From a virus, in IMG/VR virus record IMGVR_UViG_3300048839_001720, positions 1-31,272 of that record: a DNA stretch of 31,272 nt. The stretch is one strand, 5' to 3'. Below the pieces are notes generated by a model, which had not been told where the DNA came from, did not search any database, and was given only the letters and a program-made list of their open reading frames with translations. This document shows, one piece after another, positions 19,445 through 27,577 of the stretch. Position 1 is the stretch's first letter; each line of letters begins with the position of its first letter. A program made the translations under genes and the position numbers.

Positions 19445-21939
19445 CGCATGCCTCCCATCCGACCCATGGGTCCGGAGCGCGGGCTGAACCTGGCCTTGTA
19501 CTGGTTGCGGGTCCGCAGAACGTTGTCAGCCCAGGCGACCGGATGTTCCATGCGGCGGAGGCGGCCGTAGGACACCAGATCAGCCCTGGTCTTCAGCGCC
19601 GCCACCGCGTCCTTGAACTTCATGCGGATCAGCACGTCGGCCTGGATGCCGGCGATGGGGGGATGCGATTCCACGGCGGCCGAGGCGAAGCCGGACACCG
19701 CCTGGGTATTGCCGCAGGAACAGCGCATGTGGATATGGCCTTCCGGCCGTTCGTGGACGCGGGAGCAGTGCCGGCAGCGCCAGGTGGCCTGGACGGCCTT
19801 CTCCAGGCCCTTCAGGCCGCCCTTTAGGTCCCAGGGCCGGGGCGCGTCGTACATGCCGTGGCGGCCGCAGTTGCCCACCAGATCCAGGATGATGGCCTGG
19901 CTCTTGTCGGCATGGGGCCGGAGCGCCCGGCCGCAGTTTCCGACGATCACGACCTTTCCTCGACGCCTAGTAACGAGGGTCCCGAGAGAATTCGTGAGGC
20001 ACCAGACAGTATCGTTGGCTGCGGTGGCTTCCGAAATTGTCATTCTGGATCGTCCGGCTTCACAATTGGCGCCCCCGACGATGGCGGTCGCCTGTTTTTT
20101 GATGTGAAGTGTGTATGCAGGAAGACGGCCTTCCAGGGCTGGGCTGCAAGCGCCGAGATTGCACCGGTAGCCACGCCTGACGGCCAATGATTGGAGCCTG
20201 TCGGCAAGGGTCCGGTTTGCCCCGCAGGAAATGTCCATGGTGCGCTTTGTCCAGGATAGGCCGGACGGATGGGCGCCGTGACCTGAATTCATGGCTTCCA
20301 GCAAAATTCCAACCTGACGCTCGTCCATGCCGTCGAGCGCCGGGGAAAAATCCCGGTCAATGTATTCTTCCAGATGTGCCCAGCCACGCAGGTGCTTGTC
20401 TCTTCCGCGTGGCTGGCCGTGGGAAATGTTGTACCTGACGAGGCGACGATATTTCTTCATCTCCCCGACTCGCTGCGGAGAGTAGACGCCATATTTCAGC
20501 CCGCAGCCATCCAGGCATTTCTTGATTTCGTCATTTTCTTGCTTGCCCTCCGCTTGGCAAATAGTGATGGCGTTCGTCCTCTTGTTGATCCCTCCATTTG
20601 TCAAGTGCCACCCGATGAAGCGAATCTCGTCATCGGACAGCGGCAGGCCGGGCGCGTGTTGAATCCCTGACACCGGCAGGCGGAATTGCCCTTTCAGTGC
20701 GGCAAGATCGGATGCCTCGCGGATTTTCCAGTGCTTGGCGGTCTCGCTCCGGCAGCGGTACACCATGCGGTGCCCGCCGGTCACCACGAGGTTCAGGTGC
20801 GGGGACTCGACCGCGAACATCGGTTCGCCCGCTGCCCGTCGGCGTACCACCTTGTTCTCGATGGGGCGCCATTCGATCCGGCCCGTCGCCATATCGAAGG
20901 CGGCGACCTGACCGCCGATGGACACCTCGTCGTGCCTTTTCCATCCCTCCTGTGTCAGGACCTCGGTATCAAGGTCAAGACACTGCTGGACGTAAAGGCT
21001 TGTCGAGGCCGTCGGGCGCTCCAGGATCGCCACCGAGATGGCCGGGATGTCGAGGCCCTCGCCGATCAGGGCGCAGGAGGTGAGCACCTGCACGGAGCCG
21101 TCGGCCAGGCCCTGGATCGCGGCGGCGCGTTCCTTCGGGGACATGGAGCCGTCGACCGACCGGGCCAGCCAGCCGGCGGCGCGGTAGGCCTCAGCCGATG
21201 CCTCGGCCAGTTCCACCGTCGAACAGAAGACCACGGCCGGCTGTCCGGGGGCGTGCTTGGCGTACCAGCGTCGGCCGATCACGGAAATCCCTGATTTGGC
21301 CACCGCCTCGGCCACCTCGTTGAGGGCGTAGTCGCCGGCCCGGACCTTGATGCCCGACAGGTCGAGTTCGGTCTTGGGAGCGTAAACGACAGCCGGCGCC
21401 AGGTAGCCCTGTTTCGTCAGGTCGCGAATCCCGGGGCAGCGGACGACGTGATGGAAGTGCCCGTCCTCTCCCAGGCCCTTGCCGTCCAGGCGGAAGGGGG
21501 TGGCGGTCAGGCCGATGTTCTGCGCCTTCGTCATGGCATGGGCGATGCGCGTCCAGCCGGCGGCGGCGATGTGGTGCGCCTCGTCGAAGACGGCGATGTC
21601 CACCTTGGACAGCCAGGGTGCCAGGGACGCCATGCGGGCCAGCACCGTGTCCACCGAGGCGATATGCAGCTTATGACCGGTCAGCTCGTGGCCGGGGCGC
21701 AGCATGCCGTGCGGGATGCCCAGGGCCGTGGCCCGCTGGCTGGCTTGGTCGAGCAGCTCGGCGCGGTGGGCGAACCAGACCACCGTCTTCCCGGCCGCCA
21801 GCAGGGTCCGCAGTCCCTCCATGCCCATAGAGGTTTTCCCGCTGCCCACCGGGCTTTCCAGCAGCACGCCGGGCGAGCCCCGTTGCAGCCAGGCGAGGGT
21901 TTCGTTGACGGCGGCGGTCTGGTAGGGCCTCAGCTGCAT
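19438..21939 (-). CDS. Superfamily 2 DNA helicase interrupted by an intein
   Basis: An 833-residue precursor. The helicase extein has a Q-motif start (LRPYQTAAVNETL), Walker A SPVGSGKTS near 30, FDEAHH near 120, TATPF near 147, a G-L-D-I-P motif V and a motif VI split after YVQQ. The intein (residues 320-668) ends in VGN; the extein resumes with CGRALRP, restoring Q-Q-C-G-R-A-L-R. The C-terminal part has a zinc ribbon (CRHC, then CSC). Splicing would give a helicase of about 484 residues, so activity depends on splicing. The ATG overlaps the upstream stop (TGATG); a GTG lies one codon earlier. It probably acts in phage DNA replication. Confidence 0.93.
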   Translation of the reverse strand: MQLRPYQTAAVNETLAWLQRGSPGVLLESPVGSGKTSMGMEGLRTLLAAGKTVVWFAHRAELLDQASQRATALGIPHGMLRPGHELTGHKLHIASVDTVLARMASLAPWLSKVDIAVFDEAHHIAAAGWTRIAHAMTKAQNIGLTATPFRLDGKGLGEDGHFHHVVRCPGIRDLTKQGYLAPAVVYAPKTELDLSGIKVRAGDYALNEVAEAVAKSGISVIGRRWYAKHAPGQPAVVFCSTVELAEASAEAYRAAGWLARSVDGSMSPKERAAAIQGLADGSVQVLTSCALIGEGLDIPAISVAILERPTASTSLYVQQCLDLDTEVLTQEGWKRHDEVSIGGQVAAFDMATGRIEWRPIENKVVRRRAAGEPMFAVESPHLNLVVTGGHRMVYRCRSETAKHWKIREASDLAALKGQFRLPVSGIQHAPGLPLSDDEIRFIGWHLTNGGINKRTNAITICQAEGKQENDEIKKCLDGCGLKYGVYSPQRVGEMKKYRRLVRYNISHGQPRGRDKHLRGWAHLEEYIDRDFSPALDGMDERQVGILLEAMNSGHGAHPSGLSWTKRTMDISCGANRTLADRLQSLAVRRGYRCNLGACSPALEGRLPAYTLHIKKQATAIVGGANCEAGRSRMTISEATAANDTVWCLTNSLGTLVTRRRGKVVIVGNCGRALRPHADKSQAIILDLVGNCGRHGMYDAPRPWDLKGGLKGLEKAVQATWRCRHCSRVHERPEGHIHMRCSCGNTQAVSGFASAAVESHPPIAGIQADVLIRMKFKDAVAALKTRADLVSYGRLRRMEHPVAWADNVLRTRNQYKARFSPRSGPMGRMGGMRW
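19936..20982 (-). mobile_element. Intein (349 aa) with degenerate LAGLIDADG endonuclease
   Basis: The intein starts at Cys (CLDLDTEVLT, block A) and has block B LVVTGGHRMVYR. It ends with block F (TVWCLTNSLGTLVTRR) and block G VVIVGN followed by extein Cys. The middle holds two LAGLIDADG-like helices, FIGWHLTNGGI and GILLEAMNSGHG. In both, the usual acidic residue appears to be replaced (Asn and His). Splicing residues look intact, with Gly instead of the usual penultimate His, a variant seen in phage inteins. The DNA of the central part is visibly more A+T-rich than the helicase on either side. Confidence 0.9.
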
Positions 21940-22598
21940 CACTCCGCCCTCCCGTCGTCCACGGCGGCGAAATCCTTGACCAGCCCGAGGGCCTCCCTGG
22001 CGGCCTCCAGGGACCGCAGGGCGTCGGCGACGACGATCCCGGCCCGGAAGGGCTGGGCCTCCAGAAGATCGCCCTCCAGGACGAAATGCAGGTCCCTGGC
22101 GGCGGTGGCGGCGCCGAACAGGGCCTTGGCGAGGCGGGTCCGCTGCTTGCCGGCGGGCGAGGCGCCCAGGGCTTCGCGCATGTGCGCCAGGCCCATGGCG
22201 AGGAAGGCTTGATATCCGGCGTCCTGGGTGGGCGCGGGGGCATTGCCCCGCCGCCCATCCGCCGTCAGGCGGCCCGACCGATAGGCCATGAAGACCTCGA
22301 TCAGGGCCTTCCTGACCTGGGCGGCCTTGGGCGTCCGCGACAGGGCACAGGCGAGGAGGGCCTGGGGCTCGTTGAGGAAGTACTCGGTGAACTCTTGTCC
22401 GCGCGACTTGCCACGCCGTGTGGCGAGTGAGCCGTAGGTCTCGAATTCGACCTTGTTGCGGTCGATCAACTGGCGCATCGCCCTGGGGCGCTCGAAGCCC
22501 AGGCGCTCGGCGACTAGGGTGTCCAGCACCCGAGGCTCGTGGTTGACGGTGGTGTTGAGGTCGGACAGGGACAGAATCGTCCCATCGATGGCGGTCAT
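21939..22598 (-). CDS. Rha/antirepressor-like phage regulatory protein
   Basis: A 219-residue protein. The N-terminal half has PRVLDTLVAERLGFERPRAM, RQLIDRNKVEFETYG, then YFLNEPQALLACALSRTPKA and VRKALIEVFMAYRSG. This is the layout of phage Rha/Ant-type DNA-binding and antirepressor proteins. The C-terminal half is helical and Ala/Leu-rich with no known domain. The ribosome site (AGGA, eight bases before the ATG) lies inside the closing stem of a structured leader RNA. The stop overlaps the helicase start. Antirepressor function is inference from the fold pattern and the C4-like leader. Confidence 0.75.
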   Translation of the reverse strand: MTAIDGTILSLSDLNTTVNHEPRVLDTLVAERLGFERPRAMRQLIDRNKVEFETYGSLATRRGKSRGQEFTEYFLNEPQALLACALSRTPKAAQVRKALIEVFMAYRSGRLTADGRRGNAPAPTQDAGYQAFLAMGLAHMREALGASPAGKQRTRLAKALFGAATAARDLHFVLEGDLLEAQPFRAGIVVADALRSLEAAREALGLVKDFAAVDDGRAE

Positions 22599-22606
22599 GG
22601 CTTGGA

Positions 22607-22708
22607 TCCTATGTCTAAGCCTGCCGCCGGCCCTGCAAAAAGCCTGGCGGCAGGCGCCCGCGGGTTTGCAGACCCGGACATAGGAACGGGCAGGCCCGAA
22701 GGCCTCCC
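22607..22708 (-). ncRNA. Structured leader: candidate C4/P4-CI-type antisense RNA
   Basis: Read leftward, a hairpin with a cUUCGg tetraloop (22708-22688) comes first. A 9-bp stem UCCUAUGUC/GACAUAGGA (22685-22677 with 22615-22607) then encloses two hairpins. The first (22676-22661) has a 5-bp stem and the loop CUGCAA. The second (22655-22619) has a perfect 10-bp stem, and its loop contains UUUGCAG, the complement of the first loop. The 3' strand of the outer stem holds the AGGA ribosome site of the next gene. Phage P1/P7 c4 RNA likewise has two segments complementary to the antirepressor leader downstream. The UUCG loop points to leftward RNA. No homology search was possible. Confidence 0.62.
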
Positions 22709-22772
22709 GCGAGCGCCCACCATGGGAAAGCCGCGCAGGGATAGTTCCGGCGCGGCTGGCGCCTATGATCAC

Positions 22773-22788
22773 GGGGCTGCAAATCCCC
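22773..22788 (-). other. Upstream hairpin repeating the UUUGCAG loop
   Basis: GGGG and CCCC flank an 8-base loop that reads AUUUGCAG on the leftward strand. It is a second complement of the CUGCAA loop at 22671-22666. Phage P4 has a comparable seqA-seqB-seqC arrangement around its CI RNA. Another hairpin (8-bp arms at 22729-22736 and 22750-22757) lies between. Nothing else recognisable is seen in 22710-22850. Confidence 0.5.
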
Positions 22789-22855
22789 ATCGGCGGAACG
22801 CCCGCCGACGAGGAAATCCTGCCACCGTTGGCATCGCGGCGCAAGGGTGTCGTTT

Positions 22856-22900
22856 TTGTATCCACAAAAACATTGACCGACGTTGTTTTTGTGGATACAA
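22856..22900. promoter_or_regulatory. Operator of brnTA: perfect 16-bp inverted repeat
   Basis: TTGTATCCACAAAAAC at 22856-22871 is repeated inverted without mismatch at 22885-22900, around a 13-bp spacer. Each arm also contains TTGT-N4-ACAA. The repeat covers the brnT promoter, the expected target for autorepression by the ribbon-helix-helix antitoxin BrnA. Confidence 0.85.
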
Positions 22901-22901
22901 T
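22873..22901 (+). promoter_or_regulatory. brnTA promoter, apparently leaderless
   Basis: TTGACC (-35) at 22873-22878 and TACAAT (-10) at 22896-22901 are 17 bases apart. The brnT ATG begins seven bases after the -10 box, at the expected transcription start. No ribosome site is present. Confidence 0.8.
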
Positions 22902-22907
22902 AACCCC

Positions 22908-23180
22908 ATGATCATCACCTGGGACGAAACCAAGCGCCGGAGAACCCTGGAGGATCGGGGCCTCGATTTCGCCGACGCCGCTCTGGTCTTCGCCGGCCAT
23001 GCCCTGGAATTCGAGGACGACCGCGCCGATTACGGCGAACCCAGGATGGTCACGGTGGGCCGCCTGGCCGGACGGATGGTGATCGTGGTCTGGACTCCGC
23101 GCGGCGCGGAACGCCGCATCGTTTCCATGAGGAAAGCCAATGACCGGGAAAACGCGCGTTATGGGCAGCGACTTGGCTAG
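22908..23180 (+). CDS. brnT: BrnT-family toxin (ribonuclease)
   Basis: A 90-residue BrnT toxin; the family cuts RNA and stops translation. Family landmarks are in order: IITWDETKRRRTLEDRGLDFADAALVF split over the first helices, a DYGEPRMVTVGRL strand, VIVVWTPRGAERRIVSMRKA and a terminal RENARYGQRL. The start at 22908 is set by the promoter spacing and family length. Toxin first, antitoxin second is the usual brnTA order. The pair runs opposite to the surrounding early operon and is convergent with the resolvase gene, which suggests later insertion. Confidence 0.92.
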   Translation: MIITWDETKRRRTLEDRGLDFADAALVFAGHALEFEDDRADYGEPRMVTVGRLAGRMVIVVWTPRGAERRIVSMRKANDRENARYGQRLG

Positions 23181-23433
23181 GGTGGATGCCCACGTCGTCG
23201 GGCCGGCAGAGTACGAGGAAATCCCGGAACTGACGGACGAGATGATGGACCGGGCCGACGAATACCTGGCGGGCAAGCTGGTCCGCAAGGGGGGGAGGCC
23301 CAAGTCAGACTCCCCGAAGGTGGCCGTCAACATCCGCCTGTCCCCCGACGTGGTGGCGGCCTTCAAGGCCACCGGCAAGGGCTGGCAGACCCGGATCGAC
23401 GAGGCGCTGCGCAAGGCGGTGGGGTTGCTGTAG
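23140..23433 (+). CDS. brnA: BrnA-family antitoxin
   Basis: A 97-residue antitoxin. The N-terminus is acidic (EYEEIPELTDEMMDRADEYL), suited to binding the basic toxin. The C-terminus has the BrnA ribbon-helix-helix: KVAVNIRLSPDVVAAFKATG, then WQTRIDEALRKAV. It overlaps brnT by 41 bases, tightly coupling the two. AGGAAAG sits upstream of the ATG. It should bind the inverted repeat at 22856-22900 and repress its own operon. The stop is four bases from the stop of the convergent resolvase gene. Confidence 0.9.
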   Translation: MTGKTRVMGSDLARVDAHVVGPAEYEEIPELTDEMMDRADEYLAGKLVRKGGRPKSDSPKVAVNIRLSPDVVAAFKATGKGWQTRIDEALRKAVGLL

Positions 23434-25342: not shown

Positions 25343-25539
25343 GGCATCCCCCCGGCATCGCGATCGGAGGTGGCTCGGACGACATCCCGGCAGGCCTCGA
25401 ACAGGCGATAGCCCAGCCGCATGCCGAATTCTGGATCACGGAACTCGAACCACTGGTTGGACCCGACGCACAGGCAGACCGTGCCCTCGCGGCATTCCAC
25501 GCGGGCATCGACCGATTCGGCGTCGGGCCGGGCGGCCAT
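25339..25539 (-). CDS. 66-aa conserved-looking protein, unknown
   Basis: A 66-residue protein with VCLCVGSNQWFEFRDPEFG and a helix LGYRLFEACRDVV. I do not recognise a family. Its start overlaps the previous stop (TGATG), and its stop overlaps the GcrA-like start. This places it firmly in a coupled run of early genes. The frame upstream of 25539 is arginine-rich and shadows the neighbouring gene. Confidence 0.62.
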   Translation of the reverse strand: MAARPDAESVDARVECREGTVCLCVGSNQWFEFRDPEFGMRLGYRLFEACRDVVRATSDRDAGGMP

Positions 25540-26030
25540 CAGGCCTGCCCCCCCATGTCGTCCAGCAGCGCCTGCAAAGCAGTGACGGCATCGCCGGCCT
25601 CCTTGGCGATCCGGGCGCGTTCGTTGGTCGACACCGCCCCATCGGCCAGCGCGTCCCGCACGGCGCCGGCAACGTCGCCCACCTCGGCCATGATGGTCGT
25701 CAGGCGGTCGCGCGGATCGGCCGGCTTGCGACGGGGGGCGCCGAATCCTTCCAGGATGGCGGCATAGGCGGCCAGGATCGGGGGATGGCTCAGGACGTCC
25801 GGCAGGTCCGGATGCTCGGCCGCCCAGGCCATGTAGGCGGCGTCCAGGGCGATGGCCTGGGACAGCTTCGGTTCGGGCTGGACATCGTCGTCGTCGGAGA
25901 CCGGGGCGCCCCACTTGTAGACGTGACCGACCGACTTGCCGACAACCCTTGCCGCCTCGGCGGGCGAGATCGATCCCAGGACGCGCGAGACGGCTTCGTG
26001 GATGGTGCCGGGCAGGCGCGACTTGGTCAT
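25539..26030 (-). CDS. HTH phage regulator (CII/CP76-like candidate)
   Basis: A 163-residue protein. The N-terminus (TIHEAVSRVLGSISPAEAAR, VVGKSVGHVYKWGAP) is a helix-turn-helix with the look of phage CII/CP76-type regulators. KLSQAIALDAAYMAWAAEHP follows. The C-terminal half is helical (DRLTTIMAEVGDVAGAVRDA). AAGGAG precedes the ATG. It begins a run of overlapping early genes. The DNA target is unknown. Confidence 0.75.
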   Translation of the reverse strand: MTKSRLPGTIHEAVSRVLGSISPAEAARVVGKSVGHVYKWGAPVSDDDDVQPEPKLSQAIALDAAYMAWAAEHPDLPDVLSHPPILAAYAAILEGFGAPRRKPADPRDRLTTIMAEVGDVAGAVRDALADGAVSTNERARIAKEAGDAVTALQALLDDMGGQA

Positions 26031-26331: not shown

Positions 26332-26508
26332 TTATCCCCCGACCTTCTCGGCCAACTCGCGGGCGGCGCGGACGATCTCCGCGTCGTTCCGTCCCGTCAC
26401 GAAATCGGCGAAGGCGCGGGCAGCCTCAACGATCAGCCCGGCGTCGCGCGTCGCCTCGATCTGGACGGCAAGCCGGAGGCATTCGAGGCGGAGTTCGGCG
26501 TCATCCAT
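26332..26508 (-). CDS. 58-aa helical protein, unknown
   Basis: A 58-residue protein, mostly helical and charged (DDAELRLECLRLAVQIEA, then RAARELAEKVGG). AGGAGAG precedes the ATG with good spacing. It follows the Cro-like gene in the leftward early operon. Nothing in it indicates function. Confidence 0.6.
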   Translation of the reverse strand: MDDAELRLECLRLAVQIEATRDAGLIVEAARAFADFVTGRNDAEIVRAARELAEKVGG

Positions 26509-26533
26509 GCGATTCTCTCCTCTCCATTCGCCT

Positions 26534-26785
26534 TCAGGCGGCGGTATCTGTGGGGGTAGGGTGGGGGTCGTGGATCAACAGCTCGGGAGGACACTCGAAA
26601 TCGGCCGGGATGATCGCTTCGATCTTCCGCAGCGTCTCCACCGTCGGGTTCCAGCCCGGCTTGTCGAAGTTCCGGAGCGTCGTGATGTTGATCCCAGCCT
26701 CAACGGCCAGGCGGCATTTGCCCCACGCGTTCGCTTGGGCGAAGGCGCGGATGCGGATGATGGCGGCGTCGATGTTCGGGCTCAT
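26534..26785 (-). CDS. Cro-like HTH protein
   Basis: An 83-residue XRE-type protein: CRLAVEAGINITTLRNFDKP is the helix-turn-helix, followed by PTVETLRKIEAIIP. It is divergent from the CI-like repressor and shares the operator at 26798-26815, the layout of a cro/cI pair. I choose the ATG at 26785. A longer in-frame start at 26821 lies on the -35 box. With TATCAT ending at 26792, transcription would begin at about the ATG, so the mRNA is probably leaderless. Confidence 0.8.
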   Translation of the reverse strand: MSPNIDAAIIRIRAFAQANAWGKCRLAVEAGINITTLRNFDKPGWNPTVETLRKIEAIIPADFECPPELLIHDPHPTPTDTAA

Positions 26786-26791
26786 GGGTTG

Positions 26792-26821
26792 ATGATAAAT
26801 GCACCTGAGTGCATTAGTCAA
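26792..26821 (-). promoter_or_regulatory. Leftward early promoter with internal operator
   Basis: TTGACT (26821-26816) and TATCAT (26797-26792) are 18 bases apart. The whole spacer is the palindrome AATGCAC-N4-GTGCATT. Six bases separate the -10 box from the Cro-like ATG. Confidence 0.8.
26798..26815. promoter_or_regulatory. Operator O1 of the immunity region
   Basis: An 18-bp palindrome, AATGCAC-CTGA-GTGCATT. It lies between the -35 and -10 of the leftward promoter and at the -35 region of the rightward repressor promoter. The same arms recur at 31050-31067. Confidence 0.85.
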
Positions 26822-26833
26822 GATGTCATGCCC

Positions 26834-26839
26834 TATAGT
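26834..26839 (+). promoter_or_regulatory. Candidate -10 box for the CI-like repressor
   Basis: TATAGT lies 40 bases before the repressor ATG. No good -35 is seen; O1 occupies that position, so an activator-dependent promoter like lambda PRM is possible. Confidence 0.5.
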
Positions 26840-26878
26840 GCAGTTGCATCCCTGGGTTGGCGCCTCCAGGATATCCGC

Positions 26879-27577
26879 ATGAATGTCCCTAACGACTTTG
26901 GTCCGGAACAGGTACGCGAAGCATTGCAGCGCTTCATCGCCGCCCGCCCGGACCTAAATGTTGGGAATTGGACGAAATCCGCCGGCCTCGCCTACAACAC
27001 GCTCAAGAAAATTCTCATCGGAAAGACGCGGGATGTAGAGTGGGGAACGCTACAGCGACTTGCCGCCGCCGCTGGCGTCACCATCGGGGAGTTGCTCGGC
27101 CTTCCCGACGGCCCCACCCTCATGCACCGCCAGGCCGAGGTGGTATATGTCCCCCTGTGGGGCGCGGTCGGGCCGGGGGTCCCGGAGGAGCGCTTCCGGC
27201 GCCCCGAATCGGAATGGGGGTCCCTCCCCATCATCAATCCGGGAGACGCGGAAGACTTGGCGGCGGTGACCGTCGAGGGCGCCGACATGGCCCGCGAGTT
27301 TCCGCCCGGCACCGTGCTGTTCTTCCGCCCCGTGGCCGACGACCGGCCCGCCCGGCCGGGGGATTACGTCATCGTCGCCCACGATACCGGCCAGGGGGGC
27401 GAGCATCTCTGCCGCCGCCTCGCCCAGGTGGATGGCGAATGGTGGCTGAACGCCGAGACCGACGACCCCCGCCTGGCAGCCCCGATCCCGCTGGCCTCCC
27501 GGCCCGGCGCGCTGCCCCTGGGCGGCCGGGTGCGGGTGCTGGGCGTCGTGGTCACCGCCTTGAAGGCCTACCGCTGA
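26879..27577 (+). CDS. CI-like repressor with degenerate S24 domain
   Basis: A 232-residue repressor. Residues 10-75 form a helix-turn-helix (NWTKSAGLAYNTLKKILIGK, then WGTLQRLAAAAGVTIGELLG). After a linker (WGAVGPG), residues 88-232 have the LexA/S24 layout. The catalytic Ser motif G-D-S-M is G-A-D-M here (134-137). The Lys of V-K-R-L is replaced in C-R-R-L (178-181). Self-cleavage should therefore be lost. AGGA precedes the ATG at 26879; an ATG at 26828 lies before the -10 box and is unlikely. The stop overlaps the aspartyl protease start (TGATG). Confidence 0.85.
   Translation: MNVPNDFGPEQVREALQRFIAARPDLNVGNWTKSAGLAYNTLKKILIGKTRDVEWGTLQRLAAAAGVTIGELLGLPDGPTLMHRQAEVVYVPLWGAVGPGVPEERFRRPESEWGSLPIINPGDAEDLAAVTVEGADMAREFPPGTVLFFRPVADDRPARPGDYVIVAHDTGQGGEHLCRRLAQVDGEWWLNAETDDPRLAAPIPLASRPGALPLGGRVRVLGVVVTALKAYR

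Follow-up and report, generated by a model that had tools for sequence, protein, structure and literature searches.

A C4-type antisense RNA locus ahead of an antirepressor-like gene in a phage probably of alphaproteobacteria

The C4 RNA of phages P1 and P7 is processed by RNase P; one of its loops covers a ribosome-binding site and the other gives specificity (PMC5320573, PMC12197685). The CI RNA of phage P4 pairs with the segments seqA and seqC, leading to premature transcription termination, and acts on replication genes (PMC4825925). In the Gifsy-1 IsrK/STnc1160/orf45-anrP system, one transcript comprises a target-like upstream RNA, a stable downstream RNA and an antirepressor gene (PMC4825925). 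A hairpin termed Region 1 was noted upstream of 15 C4-like Group 1 RNAs of Acinetobacter baumannii (PMC5320573); it is probably an a1b1 target, a1 and b1 being the upstream, and a2 and b2 the downstream, complements of the two C4 antisense arms a and b.

We analysed a 31,272-nt stretch of viral DNA (the window; IMG/VR record IMGVR_UViG_3300048839_001720), for which an initial annotation had proposed a C4/P4-CI-type antisense RNA blocking an antirepressor-like gene, and had named the Rfam C4 covariance model as a check. That model (RF01695) matches the minus strand at 22643-22727 with 69.8 bits (E 7.5e-12), well over the curated cut-off of 45. The cmscan match spans model positions 1-87 of 87, and all 27 consensus pairs are intact and standard, with none non-standard. 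The same search scored 68.8 bits for P1, 69.6 for P7, 74.9 for P4 and 78.8 for N15. By covariance-model score the window C4 equals these founding members in quality, and the comparison with C4 and P4 CI was apt, as all four phages fit one model and have the layout described below in common. A search of phage records at the DNA level for the C4 locus gave no match.

The C4 RNA of 85 nt, like all features of the locus, is read on the minus strand. The sequence AUGGU at 22723-22719 supplies the GG(U/A) motif at the 5′ end of stem P1, the predicted site of RNase P processing, and the predicted 5′ end of mature C4 is the GGU at 22721-22719. Stem P1 has 17 pairs between its 5′ strand (22706-22722) and its 3′ strand (22648-22664). 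Stem P2, with a UUCG loop, occupies 22692-22705, and four of its five pairs have changed on both sides among C4 sequences. Stem P3 (22672-22691), supported by the cmscan alignment and by covariation, holds in its loop arm b, UCCUAUGUC (22677-22685), which has an exact complement of 9 nt at b2 and of 6 nt at b1. Arm a, CUGCAAA (22665-22671), is single-stranded between P3 and the 3′ strand of P1, and has exact 7-nt complements at both a1 and a2. An 81-nt C4 segment, with a folding energy of −50.1 kcal/mol (z −3.57), took the consensus C4 shape, in which stem 3 presents arm b in its loop while arm a stays unpaired.

Read leftwards on the minus strand, the segment 22788-22598 carries, in order, a GGGG-AUUUGCAG-CCCC hairpin, CAUAGG, a GC-rich hairpin, C4, UUUGCAG, GACAUAGGA and a start codon. 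The upstream target consists of a1 (UUUGCAG, 22777-22783), lying in the loop of the first hairpin (22788-22773), and b1 (CAUAGG, 22762-22767). Downstream, a2 (UUUGCAG, 22633-22639) offers seven exact pairs to arm a; b2 (GACAUAGGA, 22607-22615) offers nine to arm b and covers the Shine-Dalgarno sequence AGGA, which stands 8 nt before the AUG at 22598. The 31 kb of the window contain three copies of the combined motif TTTGCAG-N5-30-CATAGG, against a mean of 0.01 in 100 shuffles; the three copies are the two minus-strand targets and the plus-strand complement inside the C4 RNA.

These assignments revise parts of the initial annotation. Its 9-bp stem, UCCUAUGUC (22685-22677) with GACAUAGGA (22615-22607) over the AGGA ribosome site, is present in the sequence, but its two strands are arm b of C4 and the target b2, which can pair in cis or in trans. 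The complementary segments that it placed in two hairpin loops are present, at 22671-22665 and 22639-22633, although CUGCAAA is unpaired between stems 3 and 1′ and forms no hairpin loop. The cUUCGg hairpin was correctly seen, at 22705-22692. The further upstream hairpin also exists; it is a1, only half of a second full target whose other half, b1 (22767-22762), had been missed.

Between the upstream target and C4 stands a GC-rich hairpin, GCCGCGC...GCGCGGC followed by UUUCCC (22727-22756), in the usual terminator position of C4 loci; 24 of 30 C4 loci were found to have a terminator-like hairpin there, against 6.4 expected. The hairpin in the window does not qualify as a terminator, its U-run being too short (UUU, then CCC), so P4-like attenuation is uncertain here. 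When the minus strand was scanned for leader promoters and terminators, we found no convincing element, and no convincing sigma-70 promoter. A BrnT/BrnA toxin-antitoxin gene pair at 22908-23433 (plus strand), with an inverted repeat at 22850-22906, is transcribed away from the C4 locus; the presumed brnT/brnA operator adjoins the region expected to contain the C4 promoter. A match to MIR4359 at 22850-22906 was rejected as chance, since it falls on this inverted repeat preceding brnT, the toxin gene.

The window thus holds a further C4 locus, laid out like those of P1 and P7 and like the majority of C4 loci. With P1 and P7 it shares the fold, the score, the order a1b1-C4-a2b2, the position of b2 on the ribosome site and the GGU at the known or predicted processing site. 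The b2 site of P1 and P7 falls at icd, a small reading frame preceding ant, whereas that of the window lies directly at the Bro-N/Rha-like gene; the arm sequences also differ. The P4 CI RNA (seqA-CI-seqC) and the N15 CA RNA belong to the same Rfam model and likewise have targets upstream and downstream of the RNA, but unlike P4 CI the window has a doubtful terminator. The three-part arrangement of Gifsy-1 is also predicted in the window. In Gifsy-1, however, the short IsrK was shown to activate translation (PMC4825925).

Conservation was examined in a plain MAFFT alignment of 27 C4 sequences including the window, unfitted to structure, with the structure taken from the Rfam match in the window. 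Of all cells belonging to the 27 pairs, 94.2% held standard pairs; in sliding-structure controls, paired cells dropped to 32–48%. Changes on both sides were seen in 20 of the 27 pairs, and none of 500 shuffles reached these pairing and covariation values. The initial annotation had named a lack of covariation in relatives as grounds for refutation; covariation was found both in the C4 stems and in the C4-to-target pairings. The C4 fold, its covariation and both target pairs are observed features of the locus, and they are conserved in relatives.

The pairings were assessed with an arm test, which took the arm region of each RNA and looked for a pair of exact complements, each 6 bp or longer and correctly ordered and spaced, in a locus's own flanks versus those of other loci. 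Its limits were chosen on a first set, made up of loci from known phages and from alphaproteobacteria, and applied unchanged to two held-out sets. For the 13 C4 loci of the first set, the arms matched their own flank in 11 cases upstream and in 11 downstream, compared with 1.2% for other loci's flanks. In the held-out C4 set, of 30 loci across Pseudomonadota, the upstream flank was matched at 25 (controls 5.5%) and the downstream flank at 27 (controls 1.0%). We therefore regard a1b1-C4-a2b2 as the normal layout. It is directly readable in P1 and P7, and Rfam has a1b1 as a separate family. Two other scorings were dropped in favour of this position-constrained test: RNAduplex scoring of arm versus flank was fine upstream but lost sharpness downstream, owing to the large distance between a2 and b2, and a free-position helix score was weak too.

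The gene downstream of b2 (21939-22598, minus strand) encodes a 219-aa Bro-N/Rha/Ant-like protein, a probable antirepressor. Its likeness to Bro-N, Rha and phage antirepressors resides in the N-terminal 110 residues and stays below curated cut-offs: Pfam Bro-N scored 21.2 bits (cut-off 25.6) and pRha 18.9 (cut-off 29.9), and the PHROG anti-repressor Ant family gave E 1.3e-4. This N-terminal domain is conserved in relatives. Elsewhere in the window are a CI-like repressor gene (26507-27577, plus strand) with HTH_26 and Peptidase_S24 domains above Pfam cut-offs, and a gene for a CII-like protein with a Phage_CP76 profile match (25539-26030, minus strand). The phage therefore looks temperate, and an antirepressor could act on the CI-like repressor or the CII-like protein. 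With a separate CI-like repressor gene present, calling the C4 region a second immunity locus, as the initial annotation did, is reasonable. An alphaproteobacterial host, also proposed there, is likely given the relatives of this one gene, which were found in Azospirillum, Niveispirillum, Brucella and Pseudoroseomonas as well as in phages; the terminase had only distant matches, scattered over many hosts. C4 itself was found in 4 of 385 alphaproteobacterial genomes. By eye, 20 loci of target-gene relatives had no C4-like leader, so this gene family is not always preceded by such an RNA.

We consider it highly probable that the region is an RNA-based immunity locus of the C4 type, whose processed C4 silences the gene at 21939-22598. 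P1, P7 and P4 serve as the models for cleavage of the RNA from its leader, for its action in trans and its block of translation, and for attenuation and antirepressor activity. A leftward transcript would start upstream of 22788 and run through a1b1, C4, a2b2 and the antirepressor-like gene. C4 would be cut from this leader at the conserved AUGGU/GGU, as RNase P does in phage P1, and the excised RNA would fold into its three stems with arm b looped and arm a unpaired. Its 7-bp pairing with a2 and 9-bp pairing with b2 would hide the Shine-Dalgarno sequence and stop translation of the gene; since b2 covers the AGGA eight bases before the AUG, translation should be blocked. With the antirepressor-like gene off, the separate CI-like repressor would keep the prophage silent. 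Pairing of C4 with a1b1 of the nascent leader, comparable to P4 seqA, probably lowers read-through into C4 and the gene.

The pairing of arm b with b2 might instead hide the ribosome site within one molecule, the leader acting in cis with no separate RNA; when the full leader of 211 nt is folded, its minimum-energy structure does pair UCCUAUGUC with GACAUAGGA. A cis hairpin has no need, however, of the full C4 fold, the conserved stems or the GGU start of RNase P type, and it leaves the duplicated upstream a1b1 unexplained. The studied relatives P1, P7 and P4 moreover work through a processed RNA (PMC5320573, PMC4825925), and we judge a purely cis-acting leader improbable. Less probable still, to the point of being hardly credible, is that the locus is a decayed C4 remnant with no present function. 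The lack of a proper U-run after the terminator-like hairpin would fit decay, but the intactness of 27 of 27 consensus pairs, the perfect target matches of 7 and 9 bp and the intact target gene speak against it.

Silencing of the adjacent gene by processed C4 is compatible with a further role, in which C4 would mainly silence the antirepressors of incoming related phages, conferring superinfection immunity, rather than its own gene. The arms vary by locus and fit their own flanks far more often than those of others, as immunity specificities would, and C4 underlies the heteroimmunity of P1 and P7 (PMC12197685). We found no other phage with identical arms, though, and as the main function we regard superinfection immunity as possible but rather unlikely.

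Loci of target-gene relatives showed that this family is preceded by differing RNAs in different phages. At one of them a C4 RNA (72 bits) lies ahead of the relative, with Rfam isrK and c4-a1b1 matches just upstream. At eight others the place of C4 is taken by sRNA-Xcc1 (RF02221), above the cut-off at four (69.3 to 55.1 bits) and below it at the other four; these eight loci have their own a1b1 and often an a2b2. Two relatives have a third leader form, a long hairpin with repeated GUCCAGG (L020, upstream of 1824; L041, upstream of 1965), which has no Rfam C4 match, and in which a1b1- and a2b2-like segments were seen by eye.

sRNA-Xcc1 was discovered in 2010 as an 88-nt RNA of Xanthomonas (PMC2996969). 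It has since been discussed as an RNA controlled by HrpG/HrpX and located on integrons ahead of symE (PMC12444791), and as vesicle cargo with 212 predicted targets (PMC12189769). It is usually associated with virulence and assigned numerous predicted targets. In the literature that we searched, sRNA-Xcc1 and C4 antisense RNA were named together only in an annotation table of PMC12189769; an earlier remark elsewhere is possible. Rfam keeps sRNA-Xcc1 as a separate family outside the C4 clan, and a search with RF02221 found no match anywhere in the window. The RF02221 consensus topology is nevertheless that of C4: an outer stem, a tetraloop hairpin, a b-loop hairpin and an unpaired a.

In the arm test, sRNA-Xcc1 arms matched their own upstream flank at 31 of 41 loci in the first set and at 24 of 29 held-out loci (controls 2.7% in both). 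A downstream a2b2 was less frequent, at 10 of 41 loci (versus 0.64%) and 3 of 29 (versus 0.4%), respectively, and mostly in phages with antirepressor genes. The gene following the held-out loci encoded Bro-N in five cases (one just under cut-off), KilA-N in one, and P22_AR_N, Rha and SymE in two each; an antirepressor-domain gene follows 10 of the 29. sRNA-Xcc1 was present in 46 of the 385 alphaproteobacterial genomes and in 57 of 398 from Pseudomonadota. Two alphaproteobacterial genomes (L152-L162 and L163-L171) carry about ten sRNA-Xcc1-like units each, with differing arm specificities and matching a1b1, upstream of a Bro-N-like gene or of genes for short related proteins. By a looser test, the own upstream site was matched in 19 of 20 of these units, compared with 16 of 380 cross pairs.

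Because, judging by sequence, sRNA-Xcc1 has C4 topology, matches its own a1b1 and occupies the same site ahead of target-gene homologues, we think it very probably a C4/CI-type antisense RNA. Each would have its own a1b1 and control the adjacent downstream gene (Bro-N, KilA-N, P22-AR, Rha, SymE or a small protein), with about ten units per genome in some alphaproteobacteria, each of its own specificity. At sRNA-Xcc1 loci lacking a2b2, control would have to go through a1b1 (attenuation) and not through the ribosome site.

The window provides a complete, testable C4 locus in a phage probably of alphaproteobacteria, a group in which C4 is rare, and the wider comparison shows two flanking targets to be the general arrangement at C4 loci. 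If the C4 logic is true of sRNA-Xcc1 as well, the adjacent gene would offer one concrete and cheap test, replacing open-ended target prediction.
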